Shown here: positions 7,431-46,660 of the stretch, one piece after another
Numbering within the stretch: the first letter of the stretch is position 1
Layout: each line of letters opens with the position of its first letter
Virus record (IMG/VR): IMGVR_UViG_3300031539_000055
Coordinates: 1 to 48,660 of that record
DNA: 48,660 nt
Source: a virus
Reading direction: 5' to 3' (one strand)
Made by a program: the position numbers and the translations under genes
Notes under the pieces: model-generated
The model's database searches: none
What the model saw: the letters and a program-made list of their open reading frames with translations, nothing else
Told to the model about the DNA's origin: nothing

Positions 7431-10400
7431 TTAGACCAGCAGCGGATACAGCCGCTTCAGTTGCGCGTGGGCCAGTACCACGTCAGCCGGGTCGAGCGCC
7501 CTAGCCCACTCGATCACGTCGCCGATGTCGTCATCGTGGCCGTGGCCCGTGATCGCCAGCCGGATCGCGCCCAGCGTCTGCTCCGTCAGCGTCGTCGTGC
7601 CTGCGGGGGCGCCAGTTGTGCCCTCCGCCGCACCGTCCACGTAGACCGTGAGCGTGGTCATGTCCCACGTGATCGCCACCGAGCGGTAGCCGATGCCTGG
7701 GGCGGTATTGTTGCCGCTTGAGTAGACCGTCCCGGCGTCGTTCCGCACTCCCGCCTTGAACTTCTCGTCCGTGGTCAGCGCCAGGTAGATGTAGGGCTCG
7801 ATCGCACCCGGCACCGAGGCGCTCCAGATCACCCGCGTCGGCACGCCCCGGTTCGCTACGCTCGGCGCGGCCAGCGGAATCTGATACCACGTCAGGTCGT
7901 CCCAATAGCCGAAGCCGGGGTTCACGCACCACGGACGCATCGTGCGGTTCGAGCTGCTCGTCTCCCGCACCCCATAAGCGTTCATGGAGAGCGCAACCCC
8001 AGGCAGGGGGCTCTGCATATAGTTCCCGCCAGCAGTCGTGTAGACGGCCGCCGCCGCATACAACTCGCGCAGCCGGGTGCGGAACATCTGCCACAGCCCC
8101 TCGGTCGTGCCCACAGCCGCCGGGCTGGCGTATGCGCTGCTCTCGGTGAGGCTCTGCATCCACATGGAGTACGTGCCCCGGTCGGTGTACTGCCCCGGGA
8201 CGTACATGTAGAGGCAGCTCGCGTCGGTCTCCAAGAGCGCCTGCATCGTGGCGAGCGACTTCTCGGCACCGGAAGAGGAGACGCACTTGGTATGGGCGGA
8301 GTTGGCCGTTGCGTTGGTGCCCGCGTAGGCGACCTGCGCCGAGGCCCATGCCACCGGCAGGGCGAGCGTTCCGCCGAATGCACCGTCAAGGGTTGTGTCC
8401 TCGGCGGTCCCGTTGACGCTCAGGCCCACCGCGTCGATGGCGCCACTGGCGGCTTGGTGGAACCGCACCGAGTACCGATCCGACAGTGCCAGCGCGACCG
8501 TCCAATAGCCCGTGACCTCACTCACGCCGTTGTGGTAAGCGATCACCAGCCGAGCGGCGGCGGCCTCATAGTAGAGGCGAATGGCCGCCGTTGCTCCCGC
8601 GCCGTTTCCAAGGTTCCAGAACGTCCGGGCAGTGCCCTGGTTCGGCAGATCGCCGACGATCCCCTCCACGAGGTACGTCGCCGCCTGCGGGAGCGCGGAG
8701 TAAGCGTCCACGAACGAGTCGGCTGCCCTCACCTCGCTGGCGTCGAGGATGTCCTGCGGAGGGATGGCGTCGTTGAAGGCGTTGGCCCGGTAGAGGTACA
8801 TCGTCCCGACGCCCGGACAGACGAAAACAAAGTTCGCGTTGGCTCCCAGAACGCCCGCGGCGTTGAACGCGACCTGGTAGTAGCCACGCCCGGCGGGCTG
8901 CACAGAAAACAGTACGCCTGCACCGACGGCTGTGGACAGCACCGGCACCCCGGCGGTCCACGTCACGGTAACGTCGTGCCGCCACGCGGGTGTGTTGGCG
9001 TCATAGAGCCTGAGTGCACTCACCGGAGCGGTTCCTGCCCGGATGTAGAAACTCAGCGCCTTAGTCGCGTCACCCGTGAAGCCGATAATTCGAGATCTCG
9101 CATCCGCGCCCAGCACCGAACCCGTCAGCAGGTAGGCCCCCGTACCACCGAGAGGGTCGCCCTGCCCGGCGGTGACGCCGCAGGTCCCCTCCTCGGTCCA
9201 CGCCGCCAGATCGTCACTCGTGACGAGGTTGATGTACGCCCTTCCGAGCAGCGTCGTCCGGTACGTCACCCCGTCGTTCGCCGTCCACGAGTGGTTGTCC
9301 CGCAGGTGCCCCGCCGGGGCCGTGCGCGTCAGGTAGTCCACCCCGTCGTAGTACCTCGCCACGCCCGCCCGCGAGAACGTCTTGCGCGCCAGGTAGCGCC
9401 CGCGCCCGATCCGCTCCACGTCGCTCAGCGTCAGGTCTGCGGGGATGCGCCCGTCGTACCATTGCAGCGCGCCCGTCACCGTACCGTCCACGTCCGCGAG
9501 CTGCATGCCGGGGTGGTAGTGCGCGATGTCGGGCTGGGCCATGGCCCGCATCGTGGCGAGGGACTTCTCTGCGCCGCTCGCCGACTTCCACGAGCTGCAC
9601 CCAGAGTTGGCCGTGGCGTTGGCGCCCGCGAAGGCGACCACGTTTGCGTTCCAAGCCACCGGGAGTGCGAGCGTAGCCGCGAACGCACCGTCAAGCGTCG
9701 TGTCCTCGGCGGCCCCGTTGACACTCAAGCCCACAGAGTCTATCGCGCCGCTCGCCGCCTGATGGAAGCGCACCGCGATCTGGTCAACCAGCGCCAAGGT
9801 GACGGTCCAGTATCCCGTTACCTCAGAGACGCCGTTGTGATAGGCGATCACCAGACGGGCCGCAGCGGCCTCGTGGTAGAGCCGGATGCCTGCCGTCGCG
9901 CCGTCCCCGTTCCCGAGGTTGGCGAACGTCCTGGCCGTGCCCTGATTCGCCAGGTCACATACCACGCCCTCATAGAGGTGCGTCGCTTCCTGTGGCGTCG
10001 TCAGGCTGAGCGGCGTCGTCAGGCTGTCCGCCGTCGTGGCCTCGCTCGCGGCTAGCACGGACTCCGGTGGGACCAGCTCCTCGTACAGCGTGGGCCGCCA
10101 CACGTAGATCGTCTCCGTGCCTGCGGCATCCCAGGAGGCCGTGCCCGTGGCGTCGCACAGGTTCACGTAGACCAGCGAGTCCACCGTCACCTGCGAGGAG
10201 CCGAACAGCCGGAGCCTGATCCAATCGTCGGCCCGCACCACGCCGATCTTGCGCGTGTACCCGGCCAACCCCTCAGACGCCAGCAGCGCTCCGGTCGTCA
10301 GGTTGATCGCCGCTCGGTTGACCACTCCGTCTGTCGCGTTGTAGTAGGAGAGCGCCGCGTAGTCGTGCGTCCCGGGCTTCAGCCACACCTCGCCCGACAG

Positions 10401-13127
10401 CGGACCAATGGCCGTGTCCGAGGCGAAGCTGATCTCGTGTACGGCGTTCCCGATGTCAGCCGTGAGTAGGGCCGCCGTCGTGCCGCCGCCCGGATCAGCC
10501 TCAGCCACGCTCGTAATGACGATATTGGTCGGCGTCCAATCCGCCAGCGCTGCCGTCATCTTGTTCGTGTAGGCCCGCTCCAACAGCGTCACGAGGTAGT
10601 CCGCGCTGTCGTTGGCCCGCATGAAGTGCTTGTTCCGCAGCTCACCGCTCGCCGCCGCGCGCACTACCTGGTCCGCGTAGATCTGCGTGCCCGTGTCCGC
10701 CCTCGCGAACGTCGGCCTGATGATCTTCGTCGTCGGGCAGTCGGTGTCGTTGTACTGGCGGTCGTAGGTCGTCGCCCCGCCAGCCGACTCCGACAGCGTC
10801 CACCAGTGGTCGGGGTAGGGTGCTCCGCTCTGCGTGCCCCAATCGCGTTCATCGGTGGGCAAGCAGGCGTTGAGCTGCGCGATGGTGGGGACGTTGGACA
10901 CCCACAGGCGCGTGTCGTCGATCAGGCCCTTGAAGTAGCCTGCCGCGTCGTTGTTCGAGCCCGCCGTCATGTTCGTCGCGCCCACGGGCGTCCACACGTA
11001 GGCAGGGATGGCAGAACCCGAGAACGCCAGCGTCACCTCTGCGGGCGTAATCAGCCGTCCACTTTCCTCTTCGAGTGATGCCAGCCCGACCTTCAGCCGA
11101 TCCGCATCAGCCGCGCCCGCTCCGTCGAACAGGACCCACGCCATGTACCACGTATCGCTCGCCAGCGCCGTTGCGTATTCTGCTATGGCGGCAGCGGCCC
11201 CGTCCCACAGCGTGACCGTCAGCTTTGCGGTGGCTCCGATGCTGATCTGGTACTGCTTCTTCGAGTCGTCGGCCACGTCCCAACGCGCCTCAATGACCTG
11301 AGCCGCCGCTGGGGCCATCGTGCTCGTCTTGAAATACACCACCTTGGCGAAGGCCACGGCACCATTGAGCGCCTTGACCTCGCCGAACGAAACGGTGTCG
11401 TTCACGCCGTCGAAGTACCGCGCACCGTTCCGCGTCCACCGCTCGAAGGCACCTTTGCCGTGGCGCCCGTCGTCCACGTAGGCAGGGGTCCCGGTCCAGG
11501 TCGCCGTGAGGCCCGCGATCATCTCCGTTCCGTTCCCGTCGAAGGGCCACCAGTAGGTGAGGCCCGCGGGGTTGGGCTCGTTGATGAGGTCGGCTGCGGC
11601 CTCGGCGGCGGTCAGAGCCTTGCCGTTCCAGATGCGGATGTCGTCGAGCTTGCCGTCGAAGGTGACAGAACCAATTGCTGCCCCCACCGTATATCCAAGG
11701 GCCGACCCTCGAAGTGCCACGGGAATGACCCCCGTGACGGTGGGTGCGGCCGTGGCCACGGCACCGTACCGCCCCGTGACGGAATCGTAGGTGGCGTAGT
11801 AAAGTGCGAGCGTGCCGGCGTTGTAGGTAACGATGCCCTTGTACCGCGCTCCGGCGGACTGCGGCACCGCAAATATGACGTAGTTCGCCGCGTCGTTCCC
11901 GGCGTCGGACACATAGACGCGGATTCCGGTCGCGGTGACCCGTGCTACCAAGAACTGATTGTCGGCAGTATCCCATCTTCCGACGATGACTGGACTCACG
12001 GCCACCTCGTCCGACTCCCACGCGATGCCCCAGGAGGCTGCCGTGAGTCCATCGGCCCCTGCCCCTGGGTCCGCCGTCGTCAGGTAGTTGCCCGACGAGA
12101 TGTCCACGCGCCCCGTGGCCGTGCCCGCCAGCATGTCGGTTGCCGCGCTGTACGTCTCCGCCTGGATCGCCGTGCCCGCCGCGTTGCCCCCGACGTGCAG
12201 CACGAGGTTCTTGCCGTGCCGCGCCATCCAGCCGTCGTCACCGGCCAGTGCCATTCCGGCCCCGGCGTTGAAGCGGTCGGTGATTGGGTTCGCGGAGCCG
12301 CCGTTGTCGGTGATGAGGAGATTGACCGCGCCCTCAACATGGACCGAGGACCCGTACTGCGCCCCGACCTGAGCCGAGTAGCTGCCGGCGGTCAGCGGGT
12401 CCGGGATCATCTCCACGTCCGTCTCCAGCACCGTATCGCCGTTCGTGTCGGCGTAGGCCGTCAGCACTCCACCGCAGAAACGCACGCCCCAGAAGGTCGG
12501 AGTACCAGCCACGAACGGCACGACCAGCGCCACCGCGTAGGTGTCCACCCCGTTCACGAGGTAGCAGGTCAGTTGCGTACCTGCGTTCTTGGTGAACATG
12601 ACGCGGGAGCCCACCCCAAGGTACAGGTCGAGCAGGCAATGCTGGTGCCCGTCGTCGTAGTCCCAATCGGGGATGAACCACGCCGACATAGTCCAGTTGT
12701 TCGGTGGGAACGTGGCCGGCACTGCCCACCGAAGGTTGCAGCCCACGTCCACCTGCACGCCATATTCGGCTGCAAGATTCGTTACCCCAGCCAGCGAGCG
12801 CGCATCGAACACGTCCGAGCCGTCGTGGATCTTCACCGCGGCCATCACGGTGAACGGCGCCGCCAGGCTGACGGGCGCGTCGGCGATCTCCACCCGGTCG
12901 TCCCCGCCGAACGTCAGCGCCCGGGGCCACGCGGTCCACGTCGGGTCGGCCGCGTCCGCGCCGACGCCGGAACCCAGGATGCCGTCCACGCCGAGCGCAC
13001 GGCTCTCGGCCAGGTCACCGTCAGCCGTCTCTACGGGGATGTAGTGGCGGATGATGTCGGCGTCGTAGGGTAGCGTCATCCGCGTCTTGCGGTGCGGGTG
13101 CCAGGGGCTGCGGAGTGAGGTCAGCAT
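7431..13127 (-). CDS. Giant lectin-domain tail adhesin (1898 residues)
   Basis: A very long protein with several concanavalin A/LamG-like jelly-roll domains. Signatures include FDGKLDDIRIWNGKALTAAEA, FKGLIDDTRLW and, near the C-terminus, TLTVYVDGAAEGTTGAP. N-terminal residues DADIIRHYIPVET probably attach to the tail. A block of about 150 residues occurs twice, at about 1050-1200 and 1485-1634, with NQGTARTF, IAYHNGVSEVTGYWTV and SGAEKSLATM conserved. Such lectin arrays bind cell-surface glycans, so this is the likely receptor-binding protein. The ATG at 13127 lies 4 nt after the upstream stop; an ATG at 13079 is an alternative. No catalytic domain is evident. Confidence 0.8.
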   Translation of the reverse strand: MLTSLRSPWHPHRKTRMTLPYDADIIRHYIPVETADGDLAESRALGVDGILGSGVGADAADPTWTAWPRALTFGGDDRVEIADAPVSLAAPFTVMAAVKIHDGSDVFDARSLAGVTNLAAEYGVQVDVGCNLRWAVPATFPPNNWTMSAWFIPDWDYDDGHQHCLLDLYLGVGSRVMFTKNAGTQLTCYLVNGVDTYAVALVVPFVAGTPTFWGVRFCGGVLTAYADTNGDTVLETDVEMIPDPLTAGSYSAQVGAQYGSSVHVEGAVNLLITDNGGSANPITDRFNAGAGMALAGDDGWMARHGKNLVLHVGGNAAGTAIQAETYSAATDMLAGTATGRVDISSGNYLTTADPGAGADGLTAASWGIAWESDEVAVSPVIVGRWDTADNQFLVARVTATGIRVYVSDAGNDAANYVIFAVPQSAGARYKGIVTYNAGTLALYYATYDSVTGRYGAVATAAPTVTGVIPVALRGSALGYTVGAAIGSVTFDGKLDDIRIWNGKALTAAEAAADLINEPNPAGLTYWWPFDGNGTEMIAGLTATWTGTPAYVDDGRHGKGAFERWTRNGARYFDGVNDTVSFGEVKALNGAVAFAKVVYFKTSTMAPAAAQVIEARWDVADDSKKQYQISIGATAKLTVTLWDGAAAAIAEYATALASDTWYMAWVLFDGAGAADADRLKVGLASLEEESGRLITPAEVTLAFSGSAIPAYVWTPVGATNMTAGSNNDAAGYFKGLIDDTRLWVSNVPTIAQLNACLPTDERDWGTQSGAPYPDHWWTLSESAGGATTYDRQYNDTDCPTTKIIRPTFARADTGTQIYADQVVRAAASGELRNKHFMRANDSADYLVTLLERAYTNKMTAALADWTPTNIVITSVAEADPGGGTTAALLTADIGNAVHEISFASDTAIGPLSGEVWLKPGTHDYAALSYYNATDGVVNRAAINLTTGALLASEGLAGYTRKIGVVRADDWIRLRLFGSSQVTVDSLVYVNLCDATGTASWDAAGTETIYVWRPTLYEELVPPESVLAASEATTADSLTTPLSLTTPQEATHLYEGVVCDLANQGTARTFANLGNGDGATAGIRLYHEAAAARLVIAYHNGVSEVTGYWTVTLALVDQIAVRFHQAASGAIDSVGLSVNGAAEDTTLDGAFAATLALPVAWNANVVAFAGANATANSGCSSWKSASGAEKSLATMRAMAQPDIAHYHPGMQLADVDGTVTGALQWYDGRIPADLTLSDVERIGRGRYLARKTFSRAGVARYYDGVDYLTRTAPAGHLRDNHSWTANDGVTYRTTLLGRAYINLVTSDDLAAWTEEGTCGVTAGQGDPLGGTGAYLLTGSVLGADARSRIIGFTGDATKALSFYIRAGTAPVSALRLYDANTPAWRHDVTVTWTAGVPVLSTAVGAGVLFSVQPAGRGYYQVAFNAAGVLGANANFVFVCPGVGTMYLYRANAFNDAIPPQDILDASEVRAADSFVDAYSALPQAATYLVEGIVGDLPNQGTARTFWNLGNGAGATAAIRLYYEAAAARLVIAYHNGVSEVTGYWTVALALSDRYSVRFHQAASGAIDAVGLSVNGTAEDTTLDGAFGGTLALPVAWASAQVAYAGTNATANSAHTKCVSSSGAEKSLATMQALLETDASCLYMYVPGQYTDRGTYSMWMQSLTESSAYASPAAVGTTEGLWQMFRTRLRELYAAAAVYTTAGGNYMQSPLPGVALSMNAYGVRETSSSNRTMRPWCVNPGFGYWDDLTWYQIPLAAPSVANRGVPTRVIWSASVPGAIEPYIYLALTTDEKFKAGVRNDAGTVYSSGNNTAPGIGYRSVAITWDMTTLTVYVDGAAEGTTGAPAGTTTLTEQTLGAIRLAITGHGHDDDIGDVIEWARALDPADVVLAHAQLKRLYPLLV
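8224..8676 (-). repeat. Second copy of the ~150-residue lectin module
   Basis: It encodes the stretch from about EGIVGDLPNQGTARTF to SGAEKSLATMQALLETD of the giant adhesin, homologous to 9526-9981 in both protein and DNA. Edges are approximate. This points to an internal duplication in the adhesin gene. Confidence 0.75.
9526..9981 (-). repeat. First copy of the ~150-residue lectin module
   Basis: It encodes EGVVCDLANQGTARTF through SGAEKSLATMRAMAQPD. The match to the copy at 8224-8676 is strongest in IAYHNGVSEVTGYWTV and FHQAASGAID, and weaker at the ends. Edges are approximate. Confidence 0.75.
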
Positions 13128-17586: not shown

Positions 17587-20253
17587 TTACCAGGAACCTG
17601 GATACCACACGATTGCACCACTCATGAACGCCAGCACGTCTCCATCATTGGGGCTGTTCTCGGGAGTGATGGAACCCGCCGGACCCGTCGCCCCCGTCGC
17701 CCCCTGATCTCCGCCGTCACCTGTACTTCCTGTTACGCCGGTGATTCCTGTTACGCCAGTGACCCCGAGACCTCCAGTCTCGCCAATCGGTCCCGAGATC
17801 CCCGTCGCTCCGGTCACACCTGCGCCCCCCTGCGATCCCTCGACACCGGTAGCACCTGTTGGCCCTGTTACACCTGTCACTCCAGTAACGCCGACAGGAC
17901 CCGCCTCGCCAGTTTCTCCAATCGCACCTGAGATGCCCGTTGCCCCAGTCACTCCCTGGCCACCGGCTGCACCTGCCTCACCTGTGGCACCAGTCACTCC
18001 AGTCACCCCTGTAACACCCGTGACGCCCGGTGTGCCCGTCTCTCCGATCGGCCCTGAAATGCCGGTAGCGCCAGTAACCCCTGCATTTCCTTGAGAACCT
18101 TCAACCCCTGTCGCGCCAGTAGGGCCAGTGACGCCCGCAGAACCCGTCACGCCTGTGGGACCGGTCACCCCGGTCGCACCCGGGTTCCCGGTCTCTCCAA
18201 TCGGCCCGGAGATGCCCGTCGCTCCGGTTACGCCTGCACCACCCTGAGAGCCCTCTACCCCCGTGGCTCCCGTGGGGCCCGTAACGCCCACCCCCGTTAC
18301 ACCCGTTACACCCGTGGGACCAGGGACGGTACTAGTCTCCCCAATGGGACCTGAAATGCCCGTGGCTCCTGTTACGCCCGCATTCCCTTGCGAGCCTTCT
18401 ACCCCCGTCGCCCCTGTAGGCCCTGTGATACCAGTTGGACCCGTCACTCCTGTTGGGCCCGTCACACCCGTCACACCCGGGTTCCCCGTCTCCCCGATGG
18501 GGCCCGAAATACCGGTAGCTCCGGTTGCGCCTGCATTCCCCTGTGACCCTTCAACACCAGTGGCACCCGTGGGACCCGTCGCGCCCACCCCTCCATCCGC
18601 GATCAGGTCCCACTCAGCAGGATAATCCGGGGGAAAGTGGTTTGTATTCTCCGCGGTGCAGTAGAAGCTGGCGAAGCTCAGGTCAATCCGCTGTACGGCC
18701 ACCCCGTCATTCGGGACGTACGTCACAATAGCCGACCAGTCCCCCTTCCAACTCACCCCCACCGCGCCGGTTGGTCCCACCGCGCCGGTTGGTCCCACCG
18801 CGCCGGTTGGTCCGGTTATGCCTGTAATGCCCGTGATACCCGTGACGCCGGTCACCCCCGTCACACCGCTAACTCCCGTGATCCCGGTGATCCCCGTCGG
18901 TCCAGTTATGCCCGTCGGCCCCGTAGCGCCCGTAGGCCCAACAACACCCGTGGGACCCGTCACCCCCGTGATCCCTGTCGGCCCGGTAATGCCTGTGATT
19001 CCCGTGATCCCCGTGATTCCGGTAATGCCAGTGATTCCAGTGACGCCCGTCACGCCGTCCAGCACGTAGGTGCTCTGGATCGTGTAGTTCCGCGCGTACT
19101 GCACGATGGTCCGGTAGCTGGGCAGTCCGTACCCGTCGTCGCGCGTCAGCGGGATGCGCTTCAAGGGCTGGCGCAGATCGTACTCCGTGATCGTGGCCAC
19201 CGACGCCACCGCCGGAGCCCCGAGCTGCTTCAGCCGGAACACGCCCAGCCGGTCAGCGCCCCACCAGCACCACCCGCTGTTCACGATCGCATCGAGCACC
19301 TCCATGTACGAGACCTCTTCGTCAAGCCAGATCCCGCATTCGTACGGAGCCGCGATGTCCAGCGCCGTCACGTCCGCCGCCGACCACGCGCCTGCGCCGA
19401 ATCCTGCCCGCGTGAACAGCACGACGGAGAGCTGGGCGATGGTGCGGTTCGCCACCGCAGCACCCTGCGCCGCGTCGCACGTGATGATGCCCACGGGCGA
19501 GGAGCCGATGCGGAAGTACCCGCCCGCCAGATAGACCTTATAGCAGCCCGCAGAGGGGGCCTGAAGGTCGTCGAGCAGGTCGGCCTCCGTAGCGTACGCC
19601 GCCTCGGGCGTCAGCGCCTCGGCGCGGTCGTAGACCCCGGAGATGGCTGCCAGCGCCTCGGCCGACACCTGATAGATCAGTTTCGCCGTGTTCACGATGG
19701 GCGGCGCGATGTTCGTCACTAGCCCGAACAGCAGCGGCTTCGGCTTGCCCTTCAGGTCGCCTTCGACGCCCTCCAGCCCATCAGGCAGTACGTTGTCGCC
19801 CGCGTACTTCGTGCCCTGGACCGGCTTATCCAGCTTGAACTGTTCATCCCTCAGCCGGATCACCACCCTGTCCAAGTCCACGTCGGGCTGCTCCATCGAC
19901 CCGATGAACACGACGGTGAAGTCCGTCGGGTAGACGGTCGCCGCCGTGATCGCAGCGATCTGCCGCACGATGATGCTGCGCCCCGAGAACCCGTAGGCTA
20001 GCATGTAGTCGAGCGCCCCATCTTCGTTCTTCAGCACGAGATCGCCAACCCCGGCGACGCTGTGCCCACCGAATGTCACCCCAGCCTTCAGCACATTGCG
20101 CTGCACGTCGAGCGCCTGCGACAGCCGGTCGTCAATGAACGTGCTGATCGGCGTGTCCGTGGGCCGCGTCTTGAACGGGTGCGTGCTGAAGTACAGCGCC
20201 ACCTCCGCTGCCGTGCCAGGGTTGTACGGGGTCATCTCAGCGACGTAGATCAT
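17587..20253 (-). CDS. Tail protein with two collagen-like blocks and a carbohydrate-binding-like module
   Basis: An 888-residue protein. Residues 1 to about 398 are a globular tail/baseplate domain ([53 protein letters not shown]), similar in style to hub-adjacent tail proteins. Residues 400-499 are Gly-x-Thr collagen-like repeats. Residues 500-554 ([20 protein letters not shown]...[15 protein letters not shown]) resemble a small carbohydrate-binding module of the CBM5/12 type. Residues 555-860 are a second, longer collagen-like block built on [19 protein letters not shown] units. Residues 861-888 form a C-terminal cap ending in IVWYPGSW. Collagen-like blocks in phage tails form trimeric stalks. 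The Thr-rich triplets could be glycosylated. It overlaps the tape measure gene by ATGA. Confidence 0.85.
17674..18591 (-). repeat. Collagen-like repeat block 2
   Basis: About 300 residues of Gly-x-x triplets with a longer-period unit around [24 protein letters not shown] repeated roughly six to seven times. The DNA is repetitive but codon choice varies between units, which limits recombination between them. Unit boundaries are approximate. Confidence 0.85.
18757..19056 (-). repeat. Collagen-like repeat block 1
   Basis: About 100 residues of simple Gly-x-Thr and Gly-Pro-Thr triplets ([20 protein letters not shown]). The last part shows exact tandem DNA units encoding GPTGAV. It is separated from block 2 by the carbohydrate-binding-like module. 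Confidence 0.85.
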
Positions 20254-40579: not shown

Positions 40580-43069
40580 TCAGATCCTCACGTGCGAGAA
40601 CCGGATCGTTGGCGCTGCGGGGCGGAGTACTCGGAACTCCTCCCAACAAAGATAATCGTTTGCATCCAGAATATGATCTAGTCCGCTCGCCTTGTCACGG
40701 ATGCTCGTGCCCTCCTTATACGTCAGCCCACCAAGCGCTCGGATCAGCGCCTTGGCCCGGGGATGGATGCGGATGCGCCGGCGTGTGCCCTGGCAGAGCA
40801 TCGCCTGCGTGTTGTTCACTCGGTCCACGACCAGTGGCGCCGCTTTAGGCGCTCGTACGTCAAAGCCCGCGCGCTGTAGGATGGTGAAGTCCGTCATCCC
40901 TACCGGGGAGCTACTGTGCCGGGCCCGCCCGCTCGGGTCAGGGCAGATCACGATCTTCCGGCCCGGGTAGCGCCGCCTCAGCTCGCCGGCTACCTCCTCC
41001 GTGTTCGATGTCTGGATCTCCAGCGCATCCAGGATGTGCAGCTCGTCGGCCACCTTCACCCCGATCACGCTGGCCATCGGGTTCACGTTGAAATCCTGCC
41101 CGACGAAGATCTCGGCGCCCGTGTCCACCACGCTCGCATCCACGTTACCGGCGGGGAACGGTGCCTTGCTGAAGCTGCTGTAGACCAGCCCCTCCACATC
41201 GTCCAGTAGCTCACCGTGGATCTCCTGCCGGCCCAGGCGCGTCCCCTCGTAGGCCGCCAGCGTCTGCGTGAACCACTCCGGCGCCAGGTTGGCCCGGTTC
41301 TCGTAGCTGCTGCCCGTCACCACTACGGTGGTCGGCTGCTCCTCGATCTCCGAAAGGATCGGCACGGGCCGGGGCGTCGTGCTGATGAATATACGCGGGC
41401 GATCAGCCGAGACCTCGCGCATCCCGAACTGGAGATTTTCCCAGACCTCCCGACAATTTTTGTACTTGGCATACTCATCCAGCCATGCCGTATCGCCTGA
41501 GAACCCACGCAGTCCGTCCGGCTCTTCCGAGCTGAAGACCGTCGCCCACGAGCCGTTCGGCCAGGTGATGCGCCGCTTCGAGGGCTCATACTTCGGCCAG
41601 GGACCGTTCGGGGCGTCCAGGCACCAGAGCGGCGGGTTGCGTAGCACGCCCGCAGGCCCCTCGATCATGTAGTCTCGGGCGTCGGCCGGGGTCTTCGCCA
41701 CAAAGGCCATCCACCGCCCTGGCTCCTGCTCTGCCCGCTCGTGTACCCAACCGGCCCCGGTCGCCGTATTGTGCGTCGGGACCATACCCAGACCAGCCAG
41801 ATAGAGGTGCGAGCGCGAATCCACGGCAAGGCACCGCACTGGCTCGCTAGGGACTGGATCCACCGCCACGATGTACCGATGCGTCGTCCTGTTCCGCTGC
41901 GCCGTCTCACACCGCACGCGCTCGGCCTTCCGCCGGAGTCGAAACACCTGAGTCCTTGGCGTCCATTTCACGCGCCACTTCGGCCCCACTATTCTACCAT
42001 AGATTGTGGCCACACCTTCCGCCTTCACCGGCTTGTGCCCGAGCGATACAGCCAACTCCACTACTGCATCCGCGAGCACTTCCTTCGTGGATGTAAACTC
42101 GACATTTCCCCCAGGGGCGATGAACCCGTCCGTATCCAGGAGGCCCGCCAACAGAGCCGCGCGCTGTTCGATCGAACCCCTGAGGTAGGCAGCAGGTACA
42201 TGCTTATTCTTGAGGACGCCAAGGGTACGTAGAGCGCTGTGAAGGGACCCATTCGCCATCATCGCCCCTGTCACCGCATCCCGCTTGGCTGGCTTTCCAC
42301 CCAACGGATAGGTCGCGCAGAACGCACCCGGTTTACGGCACGGCTTCCCACTTAAAGCCACTCCGGAGGCAGCCAACATGCCAAGAAGTTCATTGGCGTC
42401 CGTATCACCTACCGTGACCGCCCCTTTTGCGCTAGACCCGTCCCCGAGCCAGACGCCCAATACGTAGGGGTCCACTGGCAGCGGCGCGACGGGAAGATCG
42501 AGTGGCGCCGCTAGAGGGATACTGTGATTCCGCTCCCGGGCATTCGCCATCAGGGTGGAGCGGATCTCCTCCGTCGTACGAGTGCCCGGAGCAGAACGCG
42601 GGTGTACGGCGCGGCCCATGGCCTTCCTATACCGCTTGTCCCATGTCAGCCAACGGTGGTCGGCGTCTGCCACGACCTCCGAGCCGTCGTCAAACCGCAC
42701 CACATAGCAGGGGCGCCCGACCTGGACCTCCGTGGCGAACGTCACCCGGCATGGACGCCCGCCCTCGTCGAATAGTCGGTCGCCTACCCGAACCTCGCCC
42801 ATCGTGGTCCAGCCATCAGGGGTAGGCAGCGGGGTGTCAAGCGCTAGGGCTTTCCCGAATCCGCGACCCGTCCTCAAAACCCAAGTCAGCCAGTCGCCCG
42901 GAGGCGGTAGCTGCTTGGGCCGGGCCCAGAAGTGCCAGTCGTGCTCAACGACCCGAAGCTCTGTCCCCGTTAGTGTGCCCAGGAACGCTCGCCATTCCGA
43001 CTCCGGTAGGCTGGCCAGCAATTCGGCTTGCGATCCCGGAAATACGGTTGGTGATGCGGTTGCGGACAA
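40580..43069 (-). CDS. terL: Terminase large subunit interrupted by an intein
   Basis: An 829-residue precursor. The extein has the ATPase P-loop TGRGFGK (residues about 67-73) continuing as TATGAGW after the intein, a Walker B segment GDTAWLDEYAKYK, motif III ISTTPRP, and C-terminal nuclease residues FVGQDFNV (Asp), ICPDPSG and LDHILDANDYL. It drives DNA packaging and cuts the concatemer. Splicing of residues 74-434 restores GRGFGKT. The start is a TTG at 43069, 6 nt after GAGGAGG; a second TTG at 43075 abuts the same site, and no ATG is available before the intein. It overlaps the small subunit gene by 125 nt. Confidence 0.92.
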   Translation of the reverse strand: MSATASPTVFPGSQAELLASLPESEWRAFLGTLTGTELRVVEHDWHFWARPKQLPPPGDWLTWVLRTGRGFGKALALDTPLPTPDGWTTMGEVRVGDRLFDEGGRPCRVTFATEVQVGRPCYVVRFDDGSEVVADADHRWLTWDKRYRKAMGRAVHPRSAPGTRTTEEIRSTLMANARERNHSIPLAAPLDLPVAPLPVDPYVLGVWLGDGSSAKGAVTVGDTDANELLGMLAASGVALSGKPCRKPGAFCATYPLGGKPAKRDAVTGAMMANGSLHSALRTLGVLKNKHVPAAYLRGSIEQRAALLAGLLDTDGFIAPGGNVEFTSTKEVLADAVVELAVSLGHKPVKAEGVATIYGRIVGPKWRVKWTPRTQVFRLRRKAERVRCETAQRNRTTHRYIVAVDPVPSEPVRCLAVDSRSHLYLAGLGMVPTHNTATGAGWVHERAEQEPGRWMAFVAKTPADARDYMIEGPAGVLRNPPLWCLDAPNGPWPKYEPSKRRITWPNGSWATVFSSEEPDGLRGFSGDTAWLDEYAKYKNCREVWENLQFGMREVSADRPRIFISTTPRPVPILSEIEEQPTTVVVTGSSYENRANLAPEWFTQTLAAYEGTRLGRQEIHGELLDDVEGLVYSSFSKAPFPAGNVDASVVDTGAEIFVGQDFNVNPMASVIGVKVADELHILDALEIQTSNTEEVAGELRRRYPGRKIVICPDPSGRARHSSSPVGMTDFTILQRAGFDVRAPKAAPLVVDRVNNTQAMLCQGTRRRIRIHPRAKALIRALGGLTYKEGTSIRDKASGLDHILDANDYLCWEEFRVLRPAAPTIRFSHVRI
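41768..42850 (-). mobile_element. Class 3-like intein with LAGLIDADG endonuclease in the TerL P-loop
   Basis: A 361-residue intein. Residue 1 is Ala (ALALDTPLPTPDGW) instead of Cys/Ser. The C-terminal junction is VPTHN followed by Thr+1. Block B has DHRW (Trp140) and block F has VRCLAVDSRSHLYLAG (Cys413); with Thr432 in PTHN these match the Trp-Cys-Thr set of class 3 inteins, in which the block F Cys starts splicing. A two-motif LAGLIDADG nuclease is present: LGVWLGDGS (about 204-212) and LLAGLLDTDGF (about 306-316). The insertion is between Lys and Thr of the ATPase P-loop, so splicing is required for packaging. Confidence 0.88.
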
Positions 43070-43448
43070 CGACAACCTCCTCTACCTGGATGGGGCCACC
43101 GTCTGCACCTGTGATCTCATGTACGCTCGTCTCGCGCCAGCCGGCCTGCGTCTTCAGATAGAAGCACATCGCCCCAAGGTTGCCACTGCGCGCCGCCTGG
43201 AGTAGCGAGCCGGCTATGGTAGTGATCGCCTTTGCGCGTCCCTCTTTATACGCTAAGGAGATTCGTGGGTCCCTTCCCATAGCTGCGTGAAATGTCGGCA
43301 CGGTGATGCCGAAGTAATCCGCCACCTGGGTCTGGTTCAGTACAGCCGCCAACGTGGCGATCTCCTGGATCTGCTTATCCGTGGGCGCCCAGGGCTTCGG
43401 ACCCCGCTTTGCCCCGTTCCCCTTCTTGCCGTTTGACCCGTTAGCCAT
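42945..43448 (-). CDS. terS: Terminase small subunit
   Basis: A 167-residue protein. A basic start (GKKGNGAKRGPKPWAP) is followed by a helix-turn-helix (DKQIQEIATLAAVLNQTQVADYFGITVPTFHAAMGRDP), a helix block (YKEGRAKAITTIAGSLLQAARSGNLGAMCFYLKTQAGWRET) and a C-terminal tail. This matches terminase small subunits that recognise the packaging site. It overlaps the upstream ParB-methyltransferase gene by 8 nt and the large subunit downstream. Confidence 0.85.
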   Translation of the reverse strand: MANGSNGKKGNGAKRGPKPWAPTDKQIQEIATLAAVLNQTQVADYFGITVPTFHAAMGRDPRISLAYKEGRAKAITTIAGSLLQAARSGNLGAMCFYLKTQAGWRETSVHEITGADGGPIQVEEVVVVRNRITNRISGIASRIAGQPTGVGMASVPGHTNGDRASGR

Positions 43449-44688: not shown

Positions 44689-46413
44689 CTAACCCGTTTG
44701 GGCTGCTGGCGTTAGGGTCATGTCGGATAGTTCAGCTTCAGCGACCATGATTCTGTAGGCGATCCAGTTCACGACCGATACCGTAACTGCATTCCCACAG
44801 AACCTGTACCTCGGCCCGTCAGCCATGTCGCAGCGGGTGCCGTCCTCGCGGGTGCCGTAGGCGGTCCAGCCTGGCGGAAAACTTTGGAGTGCCTCGCACT
44901 CGCCGGGGGTCAATCGGCGAGGGATGGCCCCCTCCATGACCTTCGGCTGGTGGTGTCCTCCGTGGGTGTTGCTCGAATGCGCCAGCGTCGGCACGGCTGC
45001 ACCAGGGGGCACGATTTGATCCTGTTGGGCGCCCCCCTGAAACGCCACCACACACGGCGGTTGTCCCATCTCGAAGCCCGTGCCCAACTTGAGGGTGGGC
45101 GATAGATCATCCATAACCAGCGGGGAGGAGTCCTGTGTCACCACAATCGGCGTCCCCCGTCCCGTCCCGTCCTCGCTGGCGTCGAAGCCTTCGGCACGGA
45201 GGGTGTGGGCGAGGACCGCACCGCAGCCCATACCGGCCCGCCCCCCGCTCGGCGTAAGGATGGCGTTGGCTAGACCGTCGGTGCCTAGTTCCGCCTGCGG
45301 TGTCCCGTCGCGCCCACGGATCGCTAGGCTCTGGGCGACTAGCTGGTTCGTGCCGTTGTCGTCGCTCACGGCAAGGGGGCCTAGTCCCTCTCGGTAGAAG
45401 CCGTCGCCCGTTGCTTGAGCGCCGACGCCAGCGCCTCCGGCAGTTCCTTCCTCCGCTTCTCGGCTCGGCGCAGGATGCCCATACAAGCCTTCGGAGAGAG
45501 CAAGTATTTCGGCGGCACGTTCGCCTCTAAAATCTGCGACAATGAACACGCGGCGCCGTCTCTGGGCCACGCCGAAGAATTGGCTGTCCAGGACTCGCCA
45601 CGCGATGTCCAACGCCCCGACGTTTGCCAGTTCAGCGAGAACGACAGCAAAATCGTTTCCGCCGTTTGACGAGAGCAGTCCCGGGACGTTCTCGAAAAGA
45701 GCGAAGGTTGGACCGACTCCGGCATCTTGAAGCTCCTTGATGATCCGCATGGCCTCAAAGAACAGCGACGACCGCTTGCCCTCAATCAGTCCAGCCCGAC
45801 GACCGGCCACCGACAGGTCTTGGCAGGGCCAGCCGCCGCAGATCACATCGACCGGCTCGACAAGTAGCGTTGCGCCGCATCCACAAAGGCGGCGTCCTCG
45901 ATGATCGGAAGGTGGATGTTGCACCCGTGGCAGAGCAGCCCCCTCACCTCCCCCGTCACGTGGCAGTGATCCACCACCCACCGCCTCGGCACCTTCCCGC
46001 AGATCGCACAGACCCCGCTTTGCCGTTCCTTCATCTCGGCAACCTGCTGCGGAGTCAGCCCGTACCTCCCGGCCAACTGCCACTTGTGGCGCTGTTCCGG
46101 CGTCCCGGCCTTCCTCGTCCCCGCAACCCGGTTCGCGTGGTCGTATGCCAACTGGCACTTCTTGCACCACGCTTGGAGCCCGTCCCCCATGTCCGACTTC
46201 CGGTAGAACTCGCTTCGCGGTTTTGTCTCCGCACACCTCGCACACCGCTTTGACATCATGCACGTCCTCCCAGTGGGGAACATCCGGCCAATGCCTCCTC
46301 AGCACCGCCCGGCATTGCGGGTCCAACTCCACGCTCCACGCTGGCGTTAGCCCGGCACGTTCTAGGGCTAGGTCGAAGCCACCAACGCCGGCGAACAGGG
46401 AGCCGAACCGCAT
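44689..46413 (-). CDS. C5-cytosine DNA methyltransferase (Dcm-like) with a large insertion
   Basis: A 574-residue protein starting MRFGSLFAGVGGFDLALERA (motif I). Motif IV CGGWPCQDLS places the catalytic Cys at 197, motif VI is FENVPGLL, motif VIII AQRRRRVFIVA, and the C-terminus has RRLTPGECEALQSFPPGW and FCGNAVT. In typical relatives the catalytic Cys lies near residue 75-80. Here about 120-130 extra residues (about 54-186), rich in Gly/Arg/Glu, separate motif I and IV. That segment is the overlapping frame of an endonuclease VII-like gene. The long region 345-480 may be target recognition. The start at 46413 lies 1 nt after the stop of the preceding gene. Activity with the insertion is uncertain. 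Confidence 0.88.
   Translation of the reverse strand: MRFGSLFAGVGGFDLALERAGLTPAWSVELDPQCRAVLRRHWPDVPHWEDVHDVKAVCEVCGDKTAKRVLPEVGHGGRAPSVVQEVPVGIRPREPGCGDEEGRDAGTAPQVAVGREVRADSAAGCRDEGTAKRGLCDLREGAEAVGGGSLPRDGGGEGAALPRVQHPPSDHRGRRLCGCGATLLVEPVDVICGGWPCQDLSVAGRRAGLIEGKRSSLFFEAMRIIKELQDAGVGPTFALFENVPGLLSSNGGNDFAVVLAELANVGALDIAWRVLDSQFFGVAQRRRRVFIVADFRGERAAEILALSEGLYGHPAPSREAEEGTAGGAGVGAQATGDGFYREGLGPLAVSDDNGTNQLVAQSLAIRGRDGTPQAELGTDGLANAILTPSGGRAGMGCGAVLAHTLRAEGFDASEDGTGRGTPIVVTQDSSPLVMDDLSPTLKLGTGFEMGQPPCVVAFQGGAQQDQIVPPGAAVPTLAHSSNTHGGHHQPKVMEGAIPRRLTPGECEALQSFPPGWTAYGTREDGTRCDMADGPRYRFCGNAVTVSVVNWIAYRIMVAEAELSDMTLTPAAQTG
45843..46259 (-). CDS. Endonuclease VII-type HNH nuclease nested in the methyltransferase gene
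   Basis: A 138-residue protein starting MMSKRCARCAETKPRSEFYR, in the +1 frame relative to the methyltransferase. CARC and CKKC form a zinc site. The core CAICGKVPRRWVVDHCHVTGEVRGLLCHGCNIHLPIIED is the recombination endonuclease VII pattern (DHCH, RGLLC..CN). GGAGG before the ATG gives it its own ribosome site. The stop TGA lies within the methyltransferase VDVICGG region. This is a homing-type insertion that leaves the outer frame open. Confidence 0.88.
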   Translation of the reverse strand: MMSKRCARCAETKPRSEFYRKSDMGDGLQAWCKKCQLAYDHANRVAGTRKAGTPEQRHKWQLAGRYGLTPQQVAEMKERQSGVCAICGKVPRRWVVDHCHVTGEVRGLLCHGCNIHLPIIEDAAFVDAAQRYLSSRSM

Positions 46414-46414
46414 C

Positions 46415-46660
46415 TCAGTCCTTGATCTCGCCCGTGCTCTTGTCCAGCCCGGTGAACATGTCTTCCGGCTCGTCACCGATCGCCACCTTGCAGCGATCCA
46501 GCGTCTCGATCGCTGTGTCGGCCGTGAAGGTCGAGAGACCAAGGTTCTCCATCTTGCTGCGCACCTTCTCCAGGTCCTCGCGGCGGCCGGCGATGGCGCG
46601 GCGCACCTCCTGCAATTCCTCCAGGTCGAAGCGAACGTTCACGCCAGTGCTTTCCGTCAT
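46415..46660 (-). CDS. 81-residue coiled-coil-like protein
   Basis: MTESTGVNVRFDLEELQEVRRAIAGRREDLEKVRSKMEN... is charged and helical in the first half; GEEP-like acidic residues follow (CKVAIGDEPEDMFTGL). It ends 1 nt before the methyltransferase start and may be co-translated with it. Function unknown. Confidence 0.65.
   Translation of the reverse strand: MTESTGVNVRFDLEELQEVRRAIAGRREDLEKVRSKMENLGLSTFTADTAIETLDRCKVAIGDEPEDMFTGLDKSTGEIKD

Follow-up and report, generated by a model that had tools for sequence, protein, structure and literature searches.

How does a phage package its DNA when the gene for its packaging motor is interrupted in the middle of the ATP-binding loop? This is the question raised by terL in the window, by which is meant the whole analysed stretch, a viral contig 48,660 bases long. 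The reading favoured here, which we put at a probability of about 95%, is that the interruption is a class 3 LAGLIDADG intein, lodged between the Lys and Thr of the TerL Walker A motif, which is predicted to splice by means of its block F position 4 (F:4) cysteine and to home into empty P-loops.

The intein lies at 41768..42850 on the minus strand, running from Ala1 to Asn361 as a stop-free insert of 361 amino acids (residues 76-436 of an 831-aa ORF), as delimited from motifs, alignment, phmmer, an AlphaFold2 model and structural alignment. Its junctions, marked here by a slash, are GRGFGK/ALALDT on the N side and PTHN/TATG on the C side, such that an N-extein tail of ...WVLRTGRGFGK is parted from a C-extein head of TATGAGWVHER. 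In other words, the insertion splits the Walker A motif GRGFGK/T of a Terminase_6-type TerL, with its Lys on one side and its Thr on the other. The initial annotation had given these boundaries, which prove exact to the base, with both junctions as described, and the Ala1, the HN/T junction, the block B Trp, the block F Cys and the Thr of PTHN that it named can all be located; its numbering of the block F residue as Cys413 needs correction, since the residue is 415 of the ORF as listed and 340 of the intein.

The motif residues were assigned by alignment of 118 inteins, namely that of the window, 19 from IMG/VR, 18 from phages and 80 from bacterial genome loci, in which Trp67, Cys340 and Thr359 fall in the B:12, F:4 and G:5 columns of their relatives. 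Trp67 (42650..42652, minus strand) is the block B position 12 member of a Trp-Cys-Thr (WCT) triplet and ends the motif DADHRW, which also holds Asp62 and His65; Cys340 (41831..41833, minus strand), at block F position 4, is the proposed first nucleophile; and Thr359-His360-Asn361 (41768..41776, minus strand) make up block G and the C-terminal splice junction. By sequence and model, the insert has the Hint fold, the terminal Asn, the Thr+1 and the precise insertion at a conserved site that are expected of a self-splicing intein.

The host gene, terL (40580..43075, minus strand), is an 831-aa precursor ORF with a TTG start as listed, which overlaps the upstream terminase small subunit gene, terS (42945..43448, minus strand; phrog_309, 8.8e-18); genes for the portal protein and the major head protein are on the same strand as terL. 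From alignment with uninterrupted homologues, the N-extein (42851..43075, minus strand) ends in the GRGFGK of Walker A, and the C-extein (40580..41767, minus strand; Pfam, PHROG and alignment) begins at Thr+1 and contains the remaining ATPase and the RNase H-like nuclease; both domains of a Terminase_6-type TerL are present. Terminase_6N matches residues 437-631 at 1.4e-10, the exteins match several PHROG TerL profiles, and PF03237 scores 41.7, above its cut-off of 22, with PF17289 (Terminase_6C, 0.00072) slightly below its own, at 20 against 22.6.

A scan with the C-extein gave 28 loci, of which L058 is the same phage again. All nine close homologues (L050-L057 and L059), which align along almost all of the C-extein at 65-73% identity, have an uninterrupted GRGFGKT or GRGFGKS, the sequences of L050 and L051 being identical at the insertion site; the empty site is at the same codon, as the claimed insertion in GRGFGK/T would have it. 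Because 9/9 of these homologues keep Walker A whole and the insert splits its Lys from its Thr, packaging would very probably depend on splicing: an unspliced TerL, its ATP-binding loop broken between these two residues, is not expected to power the motor. The same argument is made for TerL inteins in general in section 9 of PMC5050341. As a separate observation on these proteins, the TerL of L060, L061, L063, L069, L070 and L071 have a nuclease half of 57-67% identity to that of the window, and an ATPase half without a match and with a different P-loop of the GxSGK type; here there are signs, in the sequences, that the terminase ATPase and nuclease halves have been exchanged.

To the left of the junction, the DNA of the empty sites agrees with the occupied allele at 11-14 of 15 bases, and to the right at 7-10 of 15; because these flanking bases are common to both, the empty alleles are reasonable candidates for homing targets. 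The LAGLIDADG homing endonuclease domain itself covers about intein residues 120-275 (42026..42493, minus strand; PF14528, 7.6e-6). A phmmer search with just the nuclease portion finds PI-SceI at 2.9e-8, with LGDG paired to IGDG, DTDG to DSDG and KHVP to KNIP, and Asp137, Asp241 and Lys216 of the intein line up with the PI-SceI motifs. The two LAGLIDADG motifs reported earlier are identified in this alignment as VLGVWLGDG (42437..42463, minus strand; LGVWLGDG is residues 131-138, with Asp137) and LAGLLDTDG (42125..42151, minus strand; residues 234-242, with Asp241), giving two LAGLIDADG helices with their acidic residues. The PI-SceI counterparts of Asp137 and Asp241 we take to be metal ligands.

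To judge from its motifs, the nuclease looks intact, and because of this and of the empty site in close relatives, the earlier proposal that the intein is still mobile is plausible. It may instead be that the intein splices but that its endonuclease is inactive, the element now being vertically inherited with homing lost. In keeping with such a loss, the insert was found in a single lineage (two nearly identical records), the Pfam LAGLIDADG_3 score of 26.5 passes its cut-off of 22.5 by a modest margin, and 11 of the 118 aligned inteins are without Asp at position 137, so decay does occur in the family. The intein nonetheless retains Lys216, the acidic residue of each motif and blocks C, D, E and H, and the empty site in 9/9 close homologues would be expected of a recent arrival, although loss from the others would have the same effect. 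We consider the loss of homing unlikely, if still a serious contender. The motifs give no support to a broken nuclease, and the enzyme may be active. Separately, Microbacterium phage Big4 (L048) has a class 3 terminase intein at a site other than the P-loop, and its two LAGLIDADG motifs have decayed to LGKQP and LVDARQ.

A different nuclease is found elsewhere in the window. An endonuclease VII ORF of 146 residues (45843-46283, minus strand; PF02945, 4e-16) lies in another frame inside a methyltransferase ORF (44689-46542, minus strand), a C5-cytosine methylase gene. The methylase frame is itself free of stops across the embedded stretch (residues 87-233). The best-matching phage methylases for the most part align from about residue 225-231 onwards, just past the embedded endonuclease VII, and the match to Virus Rctr41k (residues 42-617) comes in two pieces that together make up 73% of the query, as expected if the endonuclease VII stretch is an insertion. 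Such a hidden endonuclease in a phage methylase is described in PMC11855218, where a similar insertion is of the HNH type but the nuclease of the window is of the endonuclease VII type. The insert may be a second homing element of the phage. Among the other genes, an 888-aa protein (17587-20253, minus strand) has collagen triple-helix repeats in eight stretches (PF01391) and a 1898-aa protein (7431-13127, minus strand) has a laminin G-like end (PF13385); both are likely virion surface or tail proteins.

A further question is whether splicing of the terL intein is conditional. Cys48 (codon 42707..42709, minus strand), from alignment the counterpart of the redox-active Cys48 of DnaBi1, shares both its number and its surrounding residues, GRPCYVV, with the cysteine of 6BS8. 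In DnaBi1, according to the available text of PMC6195587, a Cys48-Cys118 disulphide forms and H2O2 stops splicing. By extension, oxidation could join Cys48 to the catalytic Cys340 in the present intein, such that TerL would be inactive until reducing conditions are met. In favour of this idea, besides the homology, Cys48 is kept in 101 of the 118 aligned inteins, comprising 21 of the 38 viral or phage rows (that of the window included) and 80/80 of the bacterial rows, these last having been picked by similarity to the set. Against it, this conservation can reflect a need in folding or catalysis: Cys48 of DnaBi1 is termed non-conserved in PMC6195587, yet every substitution tried there abolished splicing. 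On balance, conditional splicing of this kind seems doubtful.

Cys48 also varies with position 7 of block B, being found in 95 of the 98 rows with Asp at B:7 against 6 of the 20 with another residue, and it is absent from each of the six rows in which B:7 is Cys. Among the 38 viral or phage rows, the split is 16/3 against 5/14, with a Fisher p of 0.0008. When the covariation was put to a test on the tree, the sign test was not significant (median p 0.5 to 1, with only three independent supported pairs); kinship may explain the covariation, which is kept as a lead only. In the model, strands 48-53 and 58-62 are consecutive and hairpin-like, and from the strand limits positions 48 and 62 are probably neighbours. 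The more general proposal, that packaging is redox-gated through class 3 inteins in the TerL P-loop, in which Cys48 is a widely kept part of the core tied to the B:7 Asp and a Cys48-Cys340 disulphide holds the motor unspliced until reducing conditions return in the cell, is speculative and we think it improbable. Were Cys48 to act as in DnaBi1, phage DNA packaging would come under post-translational redox control.

The favoured reading, of a class 3 intein that splices from F:4, depends on the class assignment, for which section 12 of PMC5050341 provides the definition, namely Trp, Cys and Thr at B:12, F:4 and G:5. The terL intein has Ala at position 1, and hence no Cys or Ser nucleophile there, and has the complete triplet in alignment with its 117 relatives. 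Across the 118 rows, F:4 is Cys in every one, B:12 is Trp in 117 and G:5 is Thr in 117, with the full triplet in 116; the two departures are a Ser at G:5 in L014 and an Asn at B:12 in Vibrio phage 1.245.O. The top PDB matches of the splicing domain by phmmer are 6BS8 (M. smegmatis DnaB, 2.6e-34) and 6RIX (2.2e-32), and the M. chimaera DnaB inteins 6RIX and 6RIY are among the best solved relatives by both sequence and fold. The AlphaFold2 model of the intein, from a 20-row alignment, has a pLDDT of 85 and a pTM of 0.85, only residues 168-199 being below a pLDDT of 50. With this model Foldseek returns PI-SceI structures first, followed by VMA inteins and class 3 DnaB inteins, and VIA-align superposes it on 6BS8 with a Z of 21.8 (1.2 A over 125 residues, 58% identity) and on PI-SceI 1EF0 with a Z of 27.6 (3.5 A over 332 residues). 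In sequence and fold, the best PDB matches over the splicing domain group the intein with proven class 3 inteins rather than with class 1.

Class 3, as first proposed, is thus well supported by sequence and model, being borne out by every available sequence and structural test; the suggested check on whether alignment would place the intein in class 1 or 2 instead finds the WCT triplet present and class 3 DnaB inteins nearest. The accompanying description of splicing as non-canonical is right for the mechanism but does not make the intein unusual among those of phage TerL, since 15 of the 16 intein-bearing terminase or terminase-like genes counted among 18 inspected phage proteins have WCT. 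A class 1 or 2 identity, in which the WCT residues only look alike by chance and another residue is the first nucleophile, is extremely improbable: Thr at G:5 by itself also occurs in the class 1 intein gp41-1 (PMC7664689, in the part available), but residue 1 here is Ala and not Cys or Ser, F:4 is Cys, the whole triplet is there, the DnaB class 3 match is 2.6e-34 against 0.025 for the sole listed gp41-1 entry, itself an engineered triplet mutant, and the structural Z is 21.8 with class 3 DnaB against 17.7. Chance motifs are ruled out by the phmmer value, the quality of the model and the structural alignments, and a class 1 or 2 assignment by residue 1, F:4 and the structural ranking. Separately, the inteins of L021 and L035 (Acidovorax phage ACF1 TerL) have Cys1 together with a complete Trp-Cys-Thr triplet, and may represent a step linking the chemistry of class 1 to that of class 3.

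From the scheme of class 3 steps in section 12 and the supplement legend of PMC5050341, a course for the reaction can be proposed by analogy. The Cys-His65-Thr triad described for MchDnaB1 (PMC7664689) is present here as Cys340-His65-Thr359. Cys340, aided by His65 and Thr359, would attack the Lys-Ala1 bond to form a branched thioester, after which the acyl group would pass to Thr+1, Asn361 would cyclise with the help of His360, and an O-N shift would generate GRGFGKT and with it an ATP-binding TerL. In a mixed infection the endonuclease would, as in its family, cleave related phages at their uninterrupted P-loop codons, and repair of the break would then bring in a copy of the intein.

As to where the intein came from, L001, an IMG/VR record from a 63,365-base contig, belongs to the same phage, differing at one position in 9,083 bases and at none in the intein, and both L001 and L029 repeat the window. 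The alignments leave aside 8 of the 27 IMG/VR loci other than L001: L012, L017, L020 and L022-L025 were judged copies or near copies of kept rows by their junctions and match figures, and L028 is incomplete. Of the 50,697 records in the phage collection, 404 match the intein, always at less than 60% identity, and 18 of the 404 were inspected in detail, along with L046 and L047, phages without an intein at terL. The genome rows are the best 80 of 581 confirmed places, and the counts lean towards query-like sequences. A tree of 72 inteins, in which 34 of the 80 genome loci were kept after thinning at 62% identity (the other 46 being excluded), has 29 weak branches among its 69 inner ones. In this tree the intein of the window is without a supported sister, and therefore no donor can be named.

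There are at least 12 switches in the set between Gly-Lys/ and other insertion sites, and 97 of the 118 aligned inteins sit after Gly-Lys and before Ser or Thr, their hosts including TerL, DnaB, an AAA_10 protein and dCTP deaminase. In dCTP deaminase, a non-P-loop-ATPase, class 3 inteins occur at EGK/SS (L081, L082, L086, L104, L109, L141 and similar loci; identified by Pfam for L081 and judged by junctions for the rest) at a Gly-Lys/Ser address that resembles that of the P-loop inteins, and they cluster together, with support, in the tree. From a cyanophage, a dCTP deaminase intein that excises itself has been published (PMC6293099). The terL intein strengthens the picture of class 3 inteins that move among unrelated ATPases at one Gly-Lys/Ser-or-Thr address, and its occupied allele and the nine close empty alleles, from uncultured phages, would be useful for testing homing into TerL P-loops.

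TerL P-loop inteins have already been published (Kelley 2016), and the terL intein adds a new example to an already described kind. In the sections of PMC5050341 available, TerL1-a inteins separate the Lys of the P-loop from its Thr, some TerL inteins of mycobacteriophages are of class 3, and splicing was shown for five terminase inteins and cutting for two. In the open-access PMC literature, no description of this phage or of a Terminase_6 P-loop class 3 intein was found. The proposed search for other terminase P-loop inteins with the same motif does have an outcome, in mycobacteriophage Toto and IMG/VR contig L009. Toto TerL (RKNGK/A...PTHN/T, with the full triplet) places both class and site in public phage genomes; the protein, gp9 (JN006061), agrees with that of the window in its Walker A Lys/Thr insertion, Ala1, WCT triplet and LAGLIDADG, but its intein is 37.7% identical and its host is of the TerL1 family rather than Terminase_6. 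We assign Toto to site a from our reading of its sequence; those sections of PMC5050341 give site a with its class unstated. L009 (IMGVR_UViG_3300036784_000148), whose junction is AGRGWGK/T, has, like the window, a Terminase_6N/6C TerL, the WCT triplet and LAGLIDADG, but differs in having Cys for Asp at B:7, Ala for Cys at position 48 and a length of 412 aa; L078, a Chloroflexi MAG, also has a Terminase_6 class 3 P-loop intein, at AGRRWGK/T.

Outside the terminases, PI-SceI (the VMA intein; 1EF0 and 1LWT), presumably a class 1 intein, is likewise a two-domain intein with a LAGLIDADG nuclease (Z 27.6), but belongs to a yeast ATPase subunit and is 19% identical. The inteins Msm DnaBi1 and MchDnaB1 (6BS8, 6OWN, 6RIX and 6RIY) share Ala1, Asp62, His65, Trp67, Cys48, the F:4 Cys and Thr-His-Asn with that of the window, with Asp62, His65, Trp67 and Cys48 at the same numbers in DnaBi1 (PMC6195587), and DnaBi1 is also inserted in a P-loop before Ser/Thr; they are, however, without a nuclease domain and reside in a replicative helicase, whereas the intein of the window carries LAGLIDADG and resides in TerL.
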